Assembly (NCBI RefSeq): GCF_026157105.1
Contig: NZ_JANPVQ010000001.1
Location: 1 to 64,000 of the forward strand
Length of the DNA: 64,000 nucleotides
Source: Sphingomicrobium marinum
GTDB taxonomy: Bacteria > Pseudomonadota > Alphaproteobacteria > Sphingomonadales > Sphingomonadaceae
Reading direction: 5' to 3'
This document shows positions 22,346 through 29,050 of this stretch, piece after piece. Positions within the stretch are counted from its first letter, which is position 1, and the number at the start of each line of letters is the position of its first letter. The translations under genes and the position numbers were made by a program. The notes under the pieces were generated by a model. The model saw nothing but the letters and a program-made list of their open reading frames with translations, searched no databases and was not told the origin of the DNA.

Positions 22346-23188
22346 TCAGGCTTCGAGATGCGCCGCCAGCGCAGCGAAATGATCGGCCAGCCCATCGCGA
22401 TCGTCCGGTCGCGAGAACCGCCAGATTTCGAGCTTGCCGGCCAGCGCCAGCGCTTCGGTGAACTGGTCCCCCGTTTCCCCGCGTACCTCCTGCCCCACGC
22501 CGAAGCGGTAGAGATTGGCAAGCAGCGCATTGGCCGCGGCGACGCCTTCCAACCGCTCGAACGCGAGCGCACCACTTTCCAGGACGTAGAGGCGCGACAA
22601 TGTGCGCGCGCCAGACTGCACCGGCGGTAAAGGTACGTGGAACTTGTCGAGATCGCTCGCGACCTTTCGCAAACTGTCCGGCTTCAAGCCCAAGAGTGCC
22701 AGATCGTCGCGCCACAATTTGAGGCGCAGCACGCCCGGATGCACATTGCCATCGGCATCGAGCGCCAGCAGGTCGTCTCCAAGCACCGCCCATCCGGCTG
22801 CCGCGGCCATCGCGGCGAGGCTCGATTTTCCCGCGCCGCTGTCGCCAGCAAAAGCAACCGACACGCCCTGCGGCGTTTCGAGACAGTTTGCGTGCACTGT
22901 CAGCCTTGCGCGCTGGTGGAGGAGCGCCGCCATCACCGTTCCTAAAAGCCAGATCGAAATATCCTCGCGCAGTGCGTCGGGTGGCGCCCAGATATCGATC
23001 TGCGCGCCGTTTGCGACCCGATAAACGAACGGATCCTCCTCAGGCGCGAACCAGTAGGCGCCATCCCCGCGCTCATCGGGCGGTGCTTGAGCATGCCGCC
23101 GAATGATGACATCGGCGGCGCCCCTCCCTTCAGCCAATTCCGGCAGGGGCAGTTCGCTGTCGATCAGGAGGCCGAAGGCGCGATACAT
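22346..23188 (-). CDS. HPr-kinase-like lasso peptide kinase
   Basis: 280 residues. The C-terminal two thirds is an HprK-type P-loop domain: AFAGDSGAGKSSLAAMAA (Walker A) followed by GWAVLGDDLLALD, the paired Asp motif. HprK/P regulatory domains are absent. Proteins of this type in lasso clusters (for example PadeK, ThcoK and SyanK) phosphorylate the C-terminal Ser of the precursor, and the precursor encoded here ends in Ser. The start at MYRAFGLL is chosen by AAGGTGG 5 nt upstream; the frame extends further without similarity. It is transcribed away from the B1-D-A-C-B2 genes, with only 46 bp between the assigned starts. It converges on the rpmJ terminator. Confidence 0.88.
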   Translation of the reverse strand: MYRAFGLLIDSELPLPELAEGRGAADVIIRRHAQAPPDERGDGAYWFAPEEDPFVYRVANGAQIDIWAPPDALREDISIWLLGTVMAALLHQRARLTVHANCLETPQGVSVAFAGDSGAGKSSLAAMAAAAGWAVLGDDLLALDADGNVHPGVLRLKLWRDDLALLGLKPDSLRKVASDLDKFHVPLPPVQSGARTLSRLYVLESGALAFERLEGVAAANALLANLYRFGVGQEVRGETGDQFTEALALAGKLEIWRFSRPDDRDGLADHFAALAAHLEA

Positions 23189-23234
23189 GGACACCACCTT
23201 GCCGATCATCCGCCGCGCGGCTAGCCCCAAAGCC

Positions 23235-23513
23235 ATGTACGCGCCCGACACGATCTTTGTTCGCAACGACAAATTGCCCTCCGGCGAGGTCGATGGCGAG
23301 CTGGTTGCGCTCGATATGGACAAGGGCGACTGCTTCGGGCTCGACAAGATCGGGACCGAGATCTGGCACCTTGCCGCCGCGCCTATTACGCTCAGCGCCA
23401 TCATCGCCAGGATGGTCGACACCTACGACGTCGACGAAGCGCAATGCGCCGCCGATCTCCAGCCATTCCTGGTGGACATGGTCGAGGCAGGCCTGCTGCG
23501 TATCGCCGCATGA
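23235..23513 (+). CDS. Lasso leader-recognition protein B1 (PqqD-like RRE)
   Basis: 92 residues with the PqqD/B1 pattern: LVALDMDKGDCFGLDKIGTEIWHL, then a helical C-terminal half (ITLSAIIARMVDTYDVDEAQCAADLQPFLVDMVEAGLL). B1 binds the precursor leader and hands it to the B2 protease. The start at MYAPDTIF fits the family but has no Shine-Dalgarno. An in-frame ATG at 23187 has GAAGG 8 nt upstream, and would overlap the divergent kinase start codon. The stop overlaps the exporter start (ATGA). Confidence 0.9.
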   Translation: MYAPDTIFVRNDKLPSGEVDGELVALDMDKGDCFGLDKIGTEIWHLAAAPITLSAIIARMVDTYDVDEAQCAADLQPFLVDMVEAGLLRIAA

Positions 23514-25123
23514 TCGGTCAGGCGCGCGCGCTGCTGTCACGACTGGCGGTCTCTGCCGGCTGGCGACTGTGGCTGCTGCTGACGCTCATGCTGGCCAGCG
23601 CCGCGGCGGAGACGATCGGGATCCTTTCGATCGTCCCGCTGGTCGGCGCCGCGCTCGAGGCCGGCAGCTTCCCGGTCCTCGGTGCGATCGGTCTTTCGCT
23701 GGAACAGGCGCTGCTCCTGTTTCTGGGAGCCATGGGCCTGCGCATCGGCCTCGGCTGGTGGCGCGACCGGTTGAGCGCGTCGATCGGCGCGCGGTTTGAA
23801 GCCGAGCTCGGCGCGCGGGTCGCCCGATCGCTGGTTGACGCGCCCTTTGCCGACTTCGCCGTTCGGGGGCGCGGCGATATCCAGTCGCTATTGGGCTTCG
23901 ACACGCCCCGCGCAGCGGCTGCGGCCGACCAGCTGCTGGCCCTAGGGGTAACGCTGGCCTTGCTGCTGGTAGCGGGCGCGGCAGCTGCCTGGCTTGCGCC
24001 CGTTTTCACGCTGGCGGTGCTTGTCGGCGTGGCACTGCTCGTCCTGCTTTCCGTTCCGCGCTGGCGACGCGCACGGGCCAATGGCCAAGCCATCGCCGCG
24101 TTGCACGTCGAACAGGACGAGATGGCGCAGCGGCTCTTCGGTGCGATCAAGGCAGCCAAGGCACAAGCGAGCGGCACGTATCTGGCCAATGCCTATCGCC
24201 AGCGCCTGCTCGCCATGGCGGCGCGAGAACAGCGGCTGCTGCATTACCAGGCGGACGGGCGCGCGCTCGTGCTCCTCGTCAGCGCGATTGTCGCGGCAGG
24301 ACTGGTGCTGGTGGGCACACGTGTCCTGGGCATGGATATCGTGACTCTCGGTGCAAGCCTCATCTTATACGCGCGGCTGGCCCAGCCCGCGCAGGCCCTG
24401 CATCGCATCATCGATACCCTGTCAGCATTGCTCCCCTCCTTTGCACGCATCCGCCCGCTGCTTGCTACGGTGCCCTCCAGCGCCCCCACCGAACGCGGAT
24501 CGTGGCAGCAGTTGAGCGCAAGGCGCCTCGTGCTGGCGCATGAGGACCCGTTGTTCGATCCTGTCGATATCGACGTCGCGCCGGGCGAGTGGGTGGCCAT
24601 CACCGGTCCTTCGGGCATTGGCAAGACCACGCTGGTCGATGCTTTTGCAGGCCTGCAAATGCCGTCCGAGGGCGCTATCGAAATCGATGGTGGAAGGCTC
24701 TCCGCGCGCGCTGATTGGCCGCTACACATCGCCTACGTCGTCCAGTCCGATCTTGTCTATCACGACACCATTGCCGCGAATCTCGATCCCGAAGGCAAGC
24801 TGGATGCCGCTACACTCCAACGCATTTGCGATTGTGTCGGGCTCGACCATTCCCTCGATGCGCAAGTCGTCGAGCTGGGGAGCGGGCTGTCGGGCGGCGA
24901 GCGTCAGCGATTGCTGATCGGTCGCGCGCTGTGCCGCCGGCCTACGCTGTTGTTGCTCGACGAGGCTCTCGGCGCGCTTGACGACGATGCCGCACGGACA
25001 CTTGTCGAGCGGATCAGGATGGAATTTCCCGACATCGCCGCGGTGCTGGTCACGCATCGAATGTCGCTGGCTAATCAATGTGATCGGCGCATTGCCCTTG
25101 GCAAAAGCACCGAGACCACTTAA
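23510..25123 (+). CDS. Lasso peptide ABC exporter (D protein; TMD-NBD fusion)
   Basis: 537 residues. The membrane domain (about 1-300) has six helices, starting WRLWLLLTLMLASAAAETIG. The nucleotide-binding domain has Walker A ITGPSGIGKTTL, signature LSGGERQRLLIGRAL, Walker B LLLLDEALGALD and the H-loop VLVTHRM. It matches McjD/PadeD-type exporters, which pump out the mature lasso peptide and give self-immunity (family knowledge). Translation is coupled to B1 by an ATGA overlap. The precursor gene begins 35 bp downstream. Confidence 0.93.
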   Translation: MIGQARALLSRLAVSAGWRLWLLLTLMLASAAAETIGILSIVPLVGAALEAGSFPVLGAIGLSLEQALLLFLGAMGLRIGLGWWRDRLSASIGARFEAELGARVARSLVDAPFADFAVRGRGDIQSLLGFDTPRAAAAADQLLALGVTLALLLVAGAAAAWLAPVFTLAVLVGVALLVLLSVPRWRRARANGQAIAALHVEQDEMAQRLFGAIKAAKAQASGTYLANAYRQRLLAMAAREQRLLHYQADGRALVLLVSAIVAAGLVLVGTRVLGMDIVTLGASLILYARLAQPAQALHRIIDTLSALLPSFARIRPLLATVPSSAPTERGSWQQLSARRLVLAHEDPLFDPVDIDVAPGEWVAITGPSGIGKTTLVDAFAGLQMPSEGAIEIDGGRLSARADWPLHIAYVVQSDLVYHDTIAANLDPEGKLDAATLQRICDCVGLDHSLDAQVVELGSGLSGGERQRLLIGRALCRRPTLLLLDEALGALDDDAARTLVERIRMEFPDIAAVLVTHRMSLANQCDRRIALGKSTETT

Positions 25124-25158
25124 AGTGGCAGCTAAATTATTACAGTGCCGAGATCATC

Positions 25159-25284
25159 ATGACGAAAACACCAAAACAGCGGCGCCCTTGGGCGCGGCCG
25201 ACGCTCCAGAAGCTCGACACCAAGCTGGCGACGATGGGCGGGTCGACCCGCAACGGCGAAGGCGGTCCGCTGAAAAAGAGCTGA
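25159..25284 (+). CDS. Lasso peptide precursor (A)
   Basis: 41 codons, too short for most gene callers and lying inside the upstream extension of the cyclase frame. The leader (residues 1-26) is basic and contains WARPTL, matching the YxxPxL leader motif bound by B1, and has Thr25 at position -2, the conserved lasso recognition Thr. The predicted core is residues 27-41, GGSTRNGEGGPLKKS: Gly1 can form a macrolactam with Glu8, leaving a seven-residue tail GGPLKKS. The C-terminal Ser15 is the expected target of the kinase. The stop is 2 bp before the cyclase start. GAG lies about 10 nt upstream of the ATG. Leader, core and ring are inferred; the reading frame is seen. Confidence 0.85.
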   Translation: MTKTPKQRRPWARPTLQKLDTKLATMGGSTRNGEGGPLKKS

Positions 25285-25286
25285 GC

Positions 25287-26927
25287 GTGTTCGAGGGCCC
25301 GCTGGCGGCAACGTTCCGCATCGGCGCTACGCCCGACATTCACGACACGGCATCAGCGCATGATTGGCGCCTCGAGGTTTCCCACGCAGGCGCTATCTTG
25401 CTCCTCGATTGGCCGCCCCAAGACAGCCCCCACTTTCCACAGAAAATATTCGACCTCCTCGTAGCAAAGCAGTTCGACCGACTTGCTGACATCGACGAGC
25501 GGTTCGCTGCCATCTTCATCGATACGGACGAAGTCCTTCTGGTGCGCAACTGGATTGGGTCGCGGCCGCTCCATTTTCGTATCGATGGCGATCGGCTCGA
25601 TGCTGCGACGATGCCGCAGGACCTGGCGCGAGCCGACGACAACCCCGACTGGCACTGGCTCGCCCGCCGCGCGGCAATGCAGACGCGGTCGAGCGATGGC
25701 ACGGCGTATACAGACGTAAAGCGCGTTCGCCCCGGGCATCTCGTCCGCTGGTCACGCTCAAGCGGTCGGCGCGATGACGTTCGCTTCTGGCGCCCCGACC
25801 GAACACCGCTCGGTGCGAATTTTAACGACGTTGTCGCCGAGGCCGATTCCCTGTTTGCATCCGCCATGGATCGCGCGCTGGCCGGAGCCACGCCGCCGAT
25901 CGCCGCGCAACTGACAGGGGGGCTCGACAGCTCGCTCGTCGTTTCTCATGCCGCCAAAAAAGCTTCATTGGTCACGCTGACGGGAACGCATCACGGCGCG
26001 CCCGTCGATCCCGGGCGCGGCTATTTCCTCGACGAAGCGGCGCGCGCGGCCGCCACGGCCAAGGCATTGGACGTGCCGCACTATGTCGCGCGATCCGACC
26101 GTACGTCGCTGCTCGATCAGATCGATACCTGGCAGGCACATCTGGGCGAACCCATCGCCAACGCCGACAATCTCAGTTGGCTCGACCCGCTCTACCGAAA
26201 AGCACGCGATTTGAGTGCGTCGCGGATCCTGACGGGCGCGCTCGGCAATTTTACCCTGAGCTGGCCGGGAAGCGGCGCGTTGGCCGAACTGCTGCGCCGC
26301 GGGAAACTTGCCCAATGGTGGCGGAGCGCACGCGCGCACCGCGATCGACTTGGGGCCAGCCGGAAAGGCATCACAGCGCTGAGCTTACCGTGGCTGGCGC
26401 CTGGCCAGTCCGAACAGGTCCGCTTCATCGAAGGGCCCGCGGGAAACTGGCGCGTTGCGCGCGATCGCCGCGAGGTCCGCGCCGACATCCTGCTCGGCCA
26501 CGATCCGGGACCCTGGCATGAGGCGGTACGCAGGCTCTATGGGATCGACGAGGTCGACGGTTTTGCCGATCGTAGATTGGTCGAATTCTCGCTGCGGCTA
26601 CGTGAGAGCCATTGCTATCAGCCCGGTCAGCCGCGGGCGCTCATTCGCGCTATGTTGCGTGGGCGGGTCGACGATGCGGTGATCGATGAGCCCAAGCGCG
26701 GACTGCAGGGCGCCGATTGGCCGCAGCGGCTTGCGGAGGCCTTGCCGACGATCCGGGACCAACTGGCCCGAAGCGAGGTGCCGCCGCCATTCGATGGTGA
26801 CGCGCTGCAAAGTGCGGCGATGGAATTTAGTCCTTCGGATGCATCGACCGATACCGAGACCGAAATGCGGTTTGATTTCACCCGCGCCATCGCCGCGCTA
26901 CGCCTGGGCCAGCGGATCGGGGGATGA
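25287..26927 (+). CDS. Lasso cyclase C (asparagine-synthetase-like)
   Basis: 546 residues. The N-terminal glutamine-hydrolase-like domain (about 1-190) lacks the start-adjacent Cys of true asparagine synthetases. The ATP pyrophosphatase domain has AQLTGGLDSSLVVSHA (PP-loop SGGxDS-like) and GYFLDEAARAAATAKALDVPHYV. It adenylates the Glu8 side chain and closes the ring on Gly1 (family knowledge). The GTG at 25287 is chosen: it lies 2 bp after the precursor stop, behind AAAAAGAG. The frame is open further upstream to 24978, but that would overlap the exporter and precursor genes. It is coupled to B2 by an ATGA overlap. Confidence 0.92.
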   Translation: MFEGPLAATFRIGATPDIHDTASAHDWRLEVSHAGAILLLDWPPQDSPHFPQKIFDLLVAKQFDRLADIDERFAAIFIDTDEVLLVRNWIGSRPLHFRIDGDRLDAATMPQDLARADDNPDWHWLARRAAMQTRSSDGTAYTDVKRVRPGHLVRWSRSSGRRDDVRFWRPDRTPLGANFNDVVAEADSLFASAMDRALAGATPPIAAQLTGGLDSSLVVSHAAKKASLVTLTGTHHGAPVDPGRGYFLDEAARAAATAKALDVPHYVARSDRTSLLDQIDTWQAHLGEPIANADNLSWLDPLYRKARDLSASRILTGALGNFTLSWPGSGALAELLRRGKLAQWWRSARAHRDRLGASRKGITALSLPWLAPGQSEQVRFIEGPAGNWRVARDRREVRADILLGHDPGPWHEAVRRLYGIDEVDGFADRRLVEFSLRLRESHCYQPGQPRALIRAMLRGRVDDAVIDEPKRGLQGADWPQRLAEALPTIRDQLARSEVPPPFDGDALQSAAMEFSPSDASTDTETEMRFDFTRAIAALRLGQRIGG

Positions 26928-27316
26928 GGCGACCGCCTTTCAGCGTCTATCTTGAAGCCTGCATGGCGCTGGCCATGGCCCGCATGGCGTTGCTGGCGCG
27001 GCCGAGCAAGACGCACTTTTCCGCATCAGTCGGGGGCGCACCCGCGAGCGAAGAACAGGTCGCGCTGATCCATCGCACGCTGACCGCGGCCAGCCGTCGC
27101 CTGCCGTTTCGTACCCTGTGTTACGAACAGGCGCTCGCGGCGCGTACGATGCTGGCGCGGCGCCGCCTGTCGTCGCGACTGCATTTCGGCACGGGCAAGA
27201 CCGATGGCGATCTGACGGCGCATGTCTGGCTGACCAGCGGGGAGCGTATTGTCGTGGGCGCGGACGAGGCCGCGCGCCACATCGAATTGGCGCGCAGCCC
27301 TGAACCGGAAGCCTGA
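26924..27316 (+). CDS. Lasso leader peptidase B2 (transglutaminase-like cysteine protease)
   Basis: 130 residues. Catalytic residues are visible: Cys in RTLCYEQALAARTML, His in LTAHVWLTSG, and an Asp in VVGADEAA, the pattern of B2 proteins. It cleaves the leader after Met26 (inferred from the lasso rule). N-terminal helices precede the protease domain. The start overlaps the cyclase stop (ATGA). Last gene of the B1-D-A-C-B2 unit. Confidence 0.92.
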   Translation: MRRPPFSVYLEACMALAMARMALLARPSKTHFSASVGGAPASEEQVALIHRTLTAASRRLPFRTLCYEQALAARTMLARRRLSSRLHFGTGKTDGDLTAHVWLTSGERIVVGADEAARHIELARSPEPEA

Positions 27317-28153: not shown

Positions 28154-29050
28154 ATGCGTATTCTCACTCTCACCGCCTTGCCTTTGCTGGCAATCGCCGC
28201 CACCGCGCCGGCACAGGATCGCGAAAAGATTTCGCCGAGCCAGATCGTGGCTGCGGCGCCGGCCGAAGCATGGGTCGAAATTCCGGCCGATGACATCCTT
28301 GTGCTCGAGCTGGCGGGCGATCGCACAGTCTATTTCCAGCTCGCCCCGCATGCAGCGCCGCAGCATGTCCAGAACATCCGCGCGCTAGCGGCCAGCGACT
28401 ATTGGGATGGCGCCAGCGTGTACCGGGTACAGGACAATTTCGTCGCGCAGTTCGGCCTGCGGGATATCGAGCGCGACCTGCCCGACGGCGTCATCGCCCA
28501 GCCTGATGCCGAATATGTGTTCGCGGGCGAAGGGCTCGATATGAAGCGGCTGGGCTATCCCGACCCGTATTCGCTGATGGCCGGGTTTTCTGGCGGATGG
28601 CCAGTCGCGTTGTATGACGACGGGACGGCGAGCCTGACGCATTGCTACGGCACGCTGGGCGTCGGGCGCGAACTATCCCCAAGCACCGGCGACAGCACCG
28701 AACTATATGTGATCATCGGCCAGGCGCCGCGTCACCTTGATCGCAACATCGCGATAGTCGGGCGCGCGATCGAAGGCATCGAACATCTTTCCAGCCTGGA
28801 GCGCGGTACCGACGGACCGCTTGGCATGTACGCGCAAGAACAGTCCGCGACCCCGATCGTGTCTTATACGATTGCATCGGCGATGCCCGAAGAGGTTCGC
28901 CCGCGGTTCGAATATCTGTCGGAAAAGAGCGAGGCTTTTGCGGCCTATATTGACCGCTGGGCCAATCGCTACGACGATTTCTACGAGGTATCGGCTGGCG
29001 GCATGGCCTTATGCCATGCGCCGGTGCCGATCCGCCGGGTCGAGGATTAG
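28154..29050 (+). CDS. Cyclophilin-type peptidylprolyl isomerase, exported
   Basis: 298 residues with signal peptide MRILTLTALPLLAIAATAPA. The cyclophilin domain follows: VYFQLAPHAAPQHVQNIRALA, SVYRVQDNFVAQFG (catalytic Arg and Gln region), and YVIIGQAPRHLDRNIAIVGRAIEG. A long insert (about residues 120-185) and a C-terminal extension make it larger than E. coli PpiA, as in other sphingomonads. Likely a periplasmic folding factor. Its stop overlaps that of the converging zinc-ribbon gene. Confidence 0.88.
   Translation: MRILTLTALPLLAIAATAPAQDREKISPSQIVAAAPAEAWVEIPADDILVLELAGDRTVYFQLAPHAAPQHVQNIRALAASDYWDGASVYRVQDNFVAQFGLRDIERDLPDGVIAQPDAEYVFAGEGLDMKRLGYPDPYSLMAGFSGGWPVALYDDGTASLTHCYGTLGVGRELSPSTGDSTELYVIIGQAPRHLDRNIAIVGRAIEGIEHLSSLERGTDGPLGMYAQEQSATPIVSYTIASAMPEEVRPRFEYLSEKSEAFAAYIDRWANRYDDFYEVSAGGMALCHAPVPIRRVED

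Follow-up and report, generated by a model that had tools for sequence, protein, structure and literature searches.

A probable paeninodin-type lasso peptide cluster with a divergent kinase in the rpmJ slot of Sphingomicrobium marinum

The first 64,000 nucleotides of Sphingomicrobium marinum contig NZ_JANPVQ010000001.1 (hereafter the window) very probably carry, at positions 22346–27316, a complete lasso peptide cluster of the paeninodin type, that is, one with a kinase and a split B protein. The locus consists of six intact open reading frames (ORFs), the kinase gene K on the minus strand followed by B1-D-A-C-B2 on the plus strand, and its product is most likely a C-terminally phosphorylated lasso peptide of 15 residues, as judged from the precursor gene. 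A preliminary description of this DNA had read the six genes as a full lasso pathway with an HprK-like kinase; all six lie where it placed them and each assignment survived family and motif tests. The cluster sits between rpmJ and a set of conserved flank genes ending in a peptidyl-prolyl isomerase gene. In searches of 71 genomes of the genus, ten, the window’s included, carried this gene set together with a homologue of the precursor, so its assembly goes beyond chance. The intactness of the genes, their family membership, the catalytic motifs, the conserved precursor architecture and the recurrence of the gene set are direct observations.

The precursor A comprises the leader MTKTPKQRRPWARPTLQKLDTKLATM and the core GGSTRNGEGGPLKKS, with a WxxPxL leader motif, Thr at position −2, a predicted Gly1-Glu8 ring and a C-terminal Ser, and it agrees with the pattern of a [Y/W]xxPx[L/V/I/F/A] leader and a Glu or Asp at core positions 7–9. 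Five positions are invariant across 13 aligned precursors, namely the W, the P, Ala(−3), the Glu of the ring and the Gly that follows it. In total, 16 precursors of the slot type were checked against the DNA, with the register set at a conserved Met (Asn in one). All 16 keep the ring Glu (position 8 in 14, position 7 in two), and the C-terminal Ser is present in 14, including that of the window. Residue −2 is Arg in 11 precursors, Thr in two (the window’s included) and Gly, Leu or Gln in one each, and residue 1 is Pro (n = 10), Gly (n = 3), Ser (n = 2) or Ala (n = 1). The window’s five other proteins are 43.5–60.1% identical to those of the nearest relative, genome G304. Between these two precursors, residues 19–37 differ by one replacement and six silent changes and residues 2–18 by 13 replacements and two silent changes, with the split at residues 18/19 picked after inspection of the data; the low replacement count of the former segment therefore makes the ring and the end of the leader look selected. 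Calculated [M+H]+ values are 1426.740 for the lasso and 1506.706 with one phosphate. Two further slot-type precursors occur in genome G353 (L134:6539-7029), distant from the cluster of that genome and adjoining an NTP_transf_5 gene on the opposite strand.

Family matches place the remaining biosynthetic proteins in a lasso pathway. B2 scored 60.6 bits against the NCBIfam model lasso_biosyn_B2 (cut-off 33), and D matched ABC_tran at 1.3e-27. C matched Asn_synthase (1.7e-19) and, under its cut-off, lass_lactam_cya (1e-13), and the solved structures nearest to the C profile are amide-forming synthetases. B1 matched Pfam PqqD (1.9e-15) and also lasso_PqqD_Bac at 4.8e-16, but under that model’s cut-off. 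Its nearest relatives in the PDB, found with a profile of ten orthologues, are the lasso RREs TbiB1 (3.3e-16) and PbaB1 (1.5e-15), followed by LppB of the LPP family (linear polyphosphorylated peptides; 7.7e-7) and TfuB1 (1.2e-5).

The kinase K taken alone matched HprK_rel_A at 6e-6, scoring 25 bits where the cut-off is 200, and other HprK models were also weak. Among ten aligned orthologues, nine matched HprK-related kinase A (E 0.001 or better) and eight matched kinase B, and the residues H99-G115-G118-G120-K121-S122-D138-D139 are invariant. The same motif, with nearly the same spacing, is conserved in lasso kinases according to PMC10368454 (published papers are cited here from excerpts), where six of the eight residues proved important by mutation. 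K thus carries the His-Lys-Asp-Asp motif that marks paeninodin-type (phosphorylated) lasso clusters. Foldseek searches with the best AlphaFold model, built from a two-sequence alignment and with ten-residue pLDDT means of 69–92 over residues 101–220, returned PEPCK (7.3e-7) and HPr kinase (3.9e-5), and the profile of K against the PDB also includes PEPCK (2.7e-5) and HPr(Ser) kinase (1.9e-4). K resembles HprK/PEPCK-fold kinases in its modelled structure and bears the published motif of lasso kinases. Its homologues are widespread, occurring at 1e-5 in 229 of 397 family genomes, mostly without a lasso C match. The idea that K is a mere neighbour was rejected, as it recurs with the cluster and carries the lasso-kinase motif.

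Table 1. Features of the lasso peptide locus in window coordinates
Feature	Position	Strand	Basis
K, putative HprK/PEPCK-type lasso precursor kinase, 280 aa from MYRAFG	22346..23188	-	families, motif, model
Promoter-like CTTGCC-N17-CTAGCC in K-B1 gap (putative)	23198..23226	+	by-eye comparison
B1, PqqD-fold RRE, predicted leader binder	23235..23513	+	Pfam, NCBIfam, PDB profile
D, ABC exporter	23510..25123	+	family match
A, precursor	25159-25284	+	sequence
A leader MTKTPKQRRPWARPTLQKLDTKLATM (W-16, P-13, L-11, T-2, M-1)	25159..25236	+	sequence
A core GGSTRNGEGGPLKKS, predicted Gly1-Glu8 macrolactam, C-terminal Ser15	25237..25281	+	predicted cleavage site and ring
C, asparagine-synthase-like lasso cyclase	25287..26927	+	family match; GTG start predicted
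B2, transglutaminase-fold leader peptidase	26924..27316	+	family match, Cys and His

The genes are tightly packed. As the preliminary description had noted, B1/D and C/B2 overlap by ATGA and the stop of A falls 2 bp ahead of the GTG of C; the start of C is placed at that GTG (25287) by prediction, because its frame is open far upstream. K has an alternative in-frame start at ATG 23236, and its start was set at MYRAFG because relatives begin at a MYRAFG-like residue, which leaves a K-B1 gap of 46 bp. The promoter-like pair sits in this gap (23189–23234) immediately ahead of the B1 ATG, and a loosely similar pair was seen in eight of ten K-B1 gaps, compared by eye and without statistics. The gap pair suggests a nearly leaderless operon or B1 transcript.

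In the pathway we propose, B1 would bind the WARPTL motif in the leader of A and present A to K, which would add one or perhaps several phosphates to the C-terminal Ser of A. Next, B2 together with B1 would cleave behind Met26, and C would adenylate Glu8 and close the Gly1-Glu8 ring around the tail. Finally, D would export the product and probably protect the producer. We infer the order of these steps, the phosphorylation site, the cleavage site, threading and immunity; phosphorylation ahead of cleavage and the assistance by B1 are taken by analogy from work on PadeK and BsfK.

Several observations weigh against a complete, phosphorylating lasso pathway. K, B1 and C all score under the NCBIfam cut-offs of their nearest models. 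The profile of K against the PDB is unspecific, its top rows being the P-loops of ABC proteins, and modelling of K gave a single usable structure out of five (mean pLDDT 68, against 30–35 for the remaining four). Both precursors of genome G414 are without the terminal Ser despite the presence of K, the window’s tail GGPLKKS is poor in bulky plugs, and the slot is empty in 42 of the 71 genomes (149–277 bp from rpmJ to the next flank gene). The preliminary description had made its reading depend on key residues. The Cys and His of B2 are both present and the ATP loop of C is QLTGGLDSS, of the SGGLDSS-like form, but the clade does not conserve the third triad acid of B2, and the second motif of C is GN instead of GD in 25 of 27 aligned homologues (the acid is kept in L048 and L050).

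B1 also departs from its paeninodin-type counterpart, with Asp37 and Asp74 at the pocket positions held by Gly42 and Gln79 in PbaB1, according to residue numbering moved from PadeB1 to PbaB1 to window B1 by our own mapping. As the Gly/Gln pair is described for Bacillota, this mismatch bears on the sub-family only. A change of PadeB1 Tyr38 damaged cleavage and hardly affected binding (PMC5067487); the equivalent residue in window B1, on the same mapping, is Cys33, and Cys or Val is found in all ten slot-type B1 proteins. A clean link between this residue and Thr(−2) was considered and dropped, as Thr(−2) persists in two of the ten genomes despite Cys or Val, and the comparison offers only a hint of one. 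There is a slim chance that the rpmJ-slot clusters form a phosphorylated-lasso sub-family of their own, in which Thr(−2) has mostly been given up for Arg, Gly, Leu or Gln, the rings are mostly Pro1 rings and a C-terminal (poly)phospho-Ser would act as the stopper on a tail with few bulky residues, with the window’s member keeping Thr(−2) and Gly1.

The composition of the tail bears on whether the peptide is threaded at all. The ring could close with the tail left outside it, giving a branched cyclic peptide, or the thread could be held by the phosphate instead of by a side chain, in keeping with a tail that has no aromatic plug and with the tail GTSGKS of genome G439. We regard this as unlikely, since the enzyme set and the precursor architecture are of the lasso-pathway type and small lasso rings can be retained by modest side chains. 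The missing terminal Ser in G414 bears instead on the target of K, which within the same pathway could lie inside the ring. Candidate sites in the window’s core are Ser3 and Thr4, and the Bradymonas kinase BsfK phosphorylates Ser3 of BsfA (PMC10368454). An in-ring target is nevertheless doubtful, as Ser3 occurs only in the window and G304 among the 16 precursors, most of which share the terminal Ser.

A seven-residue ring, from the core’s second Gly to the Glu after a cut behind Met-Gly, deserves similarly little credence. Such a cut would parallel one behind Met-Pro in the relatives, where the Pro right behind Met(−1) is present in 10 of 16 precursors and its removal would expose a primary amine (Gly in eight, Asn in two). 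The same register would put the window’s Thr at −3, and precursors with Ser, Ala or Gly behind the Met (or Asn) fit an eight- or seven-residue ring from that residue. It is highly improbable that the cluster is decaying and silent with K as an unrelated neighbour: although the cluster is absent, reduced or broken in most genus genomes with a slot call, including a clean deletion in a close relative, the window holds six open frames, K is present in all ten cluster genomes and change in the ring codons is mostly silent.

The paeninodin-type reading is the preferred one. The slot was followed through the 71 genomes. Complete clusters, always accompanied by K, were found in the window’s genome, G304, G353, G392, G399, G402, G414, G421, G439 and G438 (on two contigs). 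An NTP_transf_5 gene lies between D and A in G439, and a similar frame follows D in G438. D alone, as an open frame, occupies the slot in five genomes (G404, G424, G434, G440 and G441), relics remain in three (G274, G332 and G425), and B2 alone was found in two (open in G415, in two frames in G426) where rpmJ was not seen adjacent. Nine genomes gave no slot call, owing to contig ends or rearrangement (n = 7), no marker (G451) or a position outside the fetched set (G428). G425 (L140) has 88.6% and 87.1% nucleotide identity to the window on the two flanks and is without window positions 22555–27031, a clean 4.5-kb deletion that removes only the cluster interior and leaves the ends of K and B2. 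The cluster has been lost more than once within the genus. A TGA flagged in the D match of G414 had raised the idea of a decaying cluster there, which was rejected since the D gene reads through as a single open frame across query residues 5–531. The flanking peptidyl-prolyl isomerase gene of the window (28154–29050) may have been exchanged: its protein is 44–45% identical to those of G304, G392 and G402 and 61% to that of G332, and the other flank genes of G304 match the window strongly.

The five genes for D alone (L091, L092, L093, L094 and L097) form one clade inside the tree of cluster D proteins (support 100/100), nested by forks with support of 95/96 and 91/91; three outgroup rows of this tree were picked by us, and G274, G332 and G425 were excluded beforehand. 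Their pN/pS values of 0.34–0.49 show that they are constrained. In three of these five genomes (G424, G434 and G441) there is another lasso locus that has a kinase and lacks D, and G404 has C, B2 and a precursor elsewhere, the fetched span showing neither K nor D. Immunity as the settled explanation for a lone D was therefore set aside, and export in trans is equally likely because four of the five genomes with D alone carry such D-less lasso genes. Six other genomes with a D-less locus (L195, L197–L201) are absent from the set that has D in the slot.

A second lasso type in the genus (L192–L195, L197–L201 and L139) has no D at its locus, and K was located at seven of the ten loci. Its precursors follow W..PxV/L...A[GD]xAE with Glu at the presumed −2, a few having Lys or Gln at the expected residue 1; their terminal Ser is not evidence, because the search filter required it.

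C was searched for in 397 family genomes, with at most three candidates scored per genome, and 33 matched, 28 of them outside the genus. At the 16 loci fetched from 13 of these 28 genomes, with B1 located at ten, the window’s order was absent and no D was found between B1 and C. A B1 profile run on 396 genomes of the bacterial order, with at most 12 candidates scored per genome, scored the sample’s eight slot-type B1 proteins at 123–138 bits and the others among the matches listed at no more than 75.5 bits.

The preliminary description had contrasted the gene order with A-C-B1-B2-D, a difference that extends to all three orders given in the excerpt of PMC5067487, namely A B1 B2 C K D (proteobacterial kinase cluster), C A K B1 B2 D (Firmicutes) and A C B1 B2 D (actinobacteria). 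Paeninodin-type clusters (pade, thco, psm), as excerpted, share with the window the split B1/B2, an HprK-like kinase, an ABC exporter, a WxxP leader and the C-terminal Ser. The paeninodin leader, like that of the window, ends in Thr-Met. These clusters differ from the window in their C A K B1 B2 D order, in the Gly/Gln pocket of B1 and in the nucleotidyltransferase, which the window’s locus is without. The window’s genome has one PF14907 nucleotidyltransferase (G000:C1:1070273-1070971), remote from the cluster. In Bacillota, lasso leaders of the paeninodin-like kind carry the WxxP motif (PMC13381572). PMC9266682 covers PadeK, ThcoK, SyanK, PsmK and PsmN, with the C-terminal Ser as the site for the first three. 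The syan cluster of Sphingobium yanoikuyae, probably of the same bacterial order, shares the kinase and the split B, and SyanK polyphosphorylates the terminal Ser (PMC9266682). A proteobacterial kinase lasso cluster is published with the order A B1 B2 C K D, unlike the window.

The bsf cluster of Bradymonas sediminis has in common the kinase, split B and ABC exporter, and its non-Thr(−2) leader resembles most relatives of the window’s cluster. It differs from the window, as far as the excerpt goes, in Ile(−2), a YxxPxL leader, an Asp8 ring, a C-terminal Asp, the Ser3 phosphate and an N gene. Ile or Val at −2 is reported for kinase clusters, Sphingomonadales included (PMC10368454). LPP clusters share an HprK kinase, an RRE and a transporter, and are described with an SpI peptidase, about a third of SpIs being linked to lasso C and B2; no SpI-type peptidase was found among the six cluster genes, which were the genes searched. 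An LPP-type cluster was rejected because C and B2 are present.

Already in print are sphingomonad lasso clusters with a kinase (SyanK), phosphorylation of the C-terminal Ser, and precursors that depart from Thr(−2). Relative to the literature covered in excerpt, what is new is the order B1-D-A-C-B2 with a divergent K, the precursor set and the fixed slot; no title or abstract opening in the literature searched, whose coverage stops short of the major surveys, matched this gene order or Arg/Glu(−2), and the claim to novelty is kept narrow for that reason.

The cluster adds a compact and so far genus-bound order to the kinase-bearing lasso clusters. Its 16 natural precursors, in which residue −2, residue 1 and ring size vary around a constant ring Glu and a terminal Ser kept in most, offer ready material for testing which features B1, B2, C and K recognise. 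The range of slot states (full, empty, D only and freshly deleted) allows gain, loss and a possible survival of the lone exporter to be tested within a single genus.

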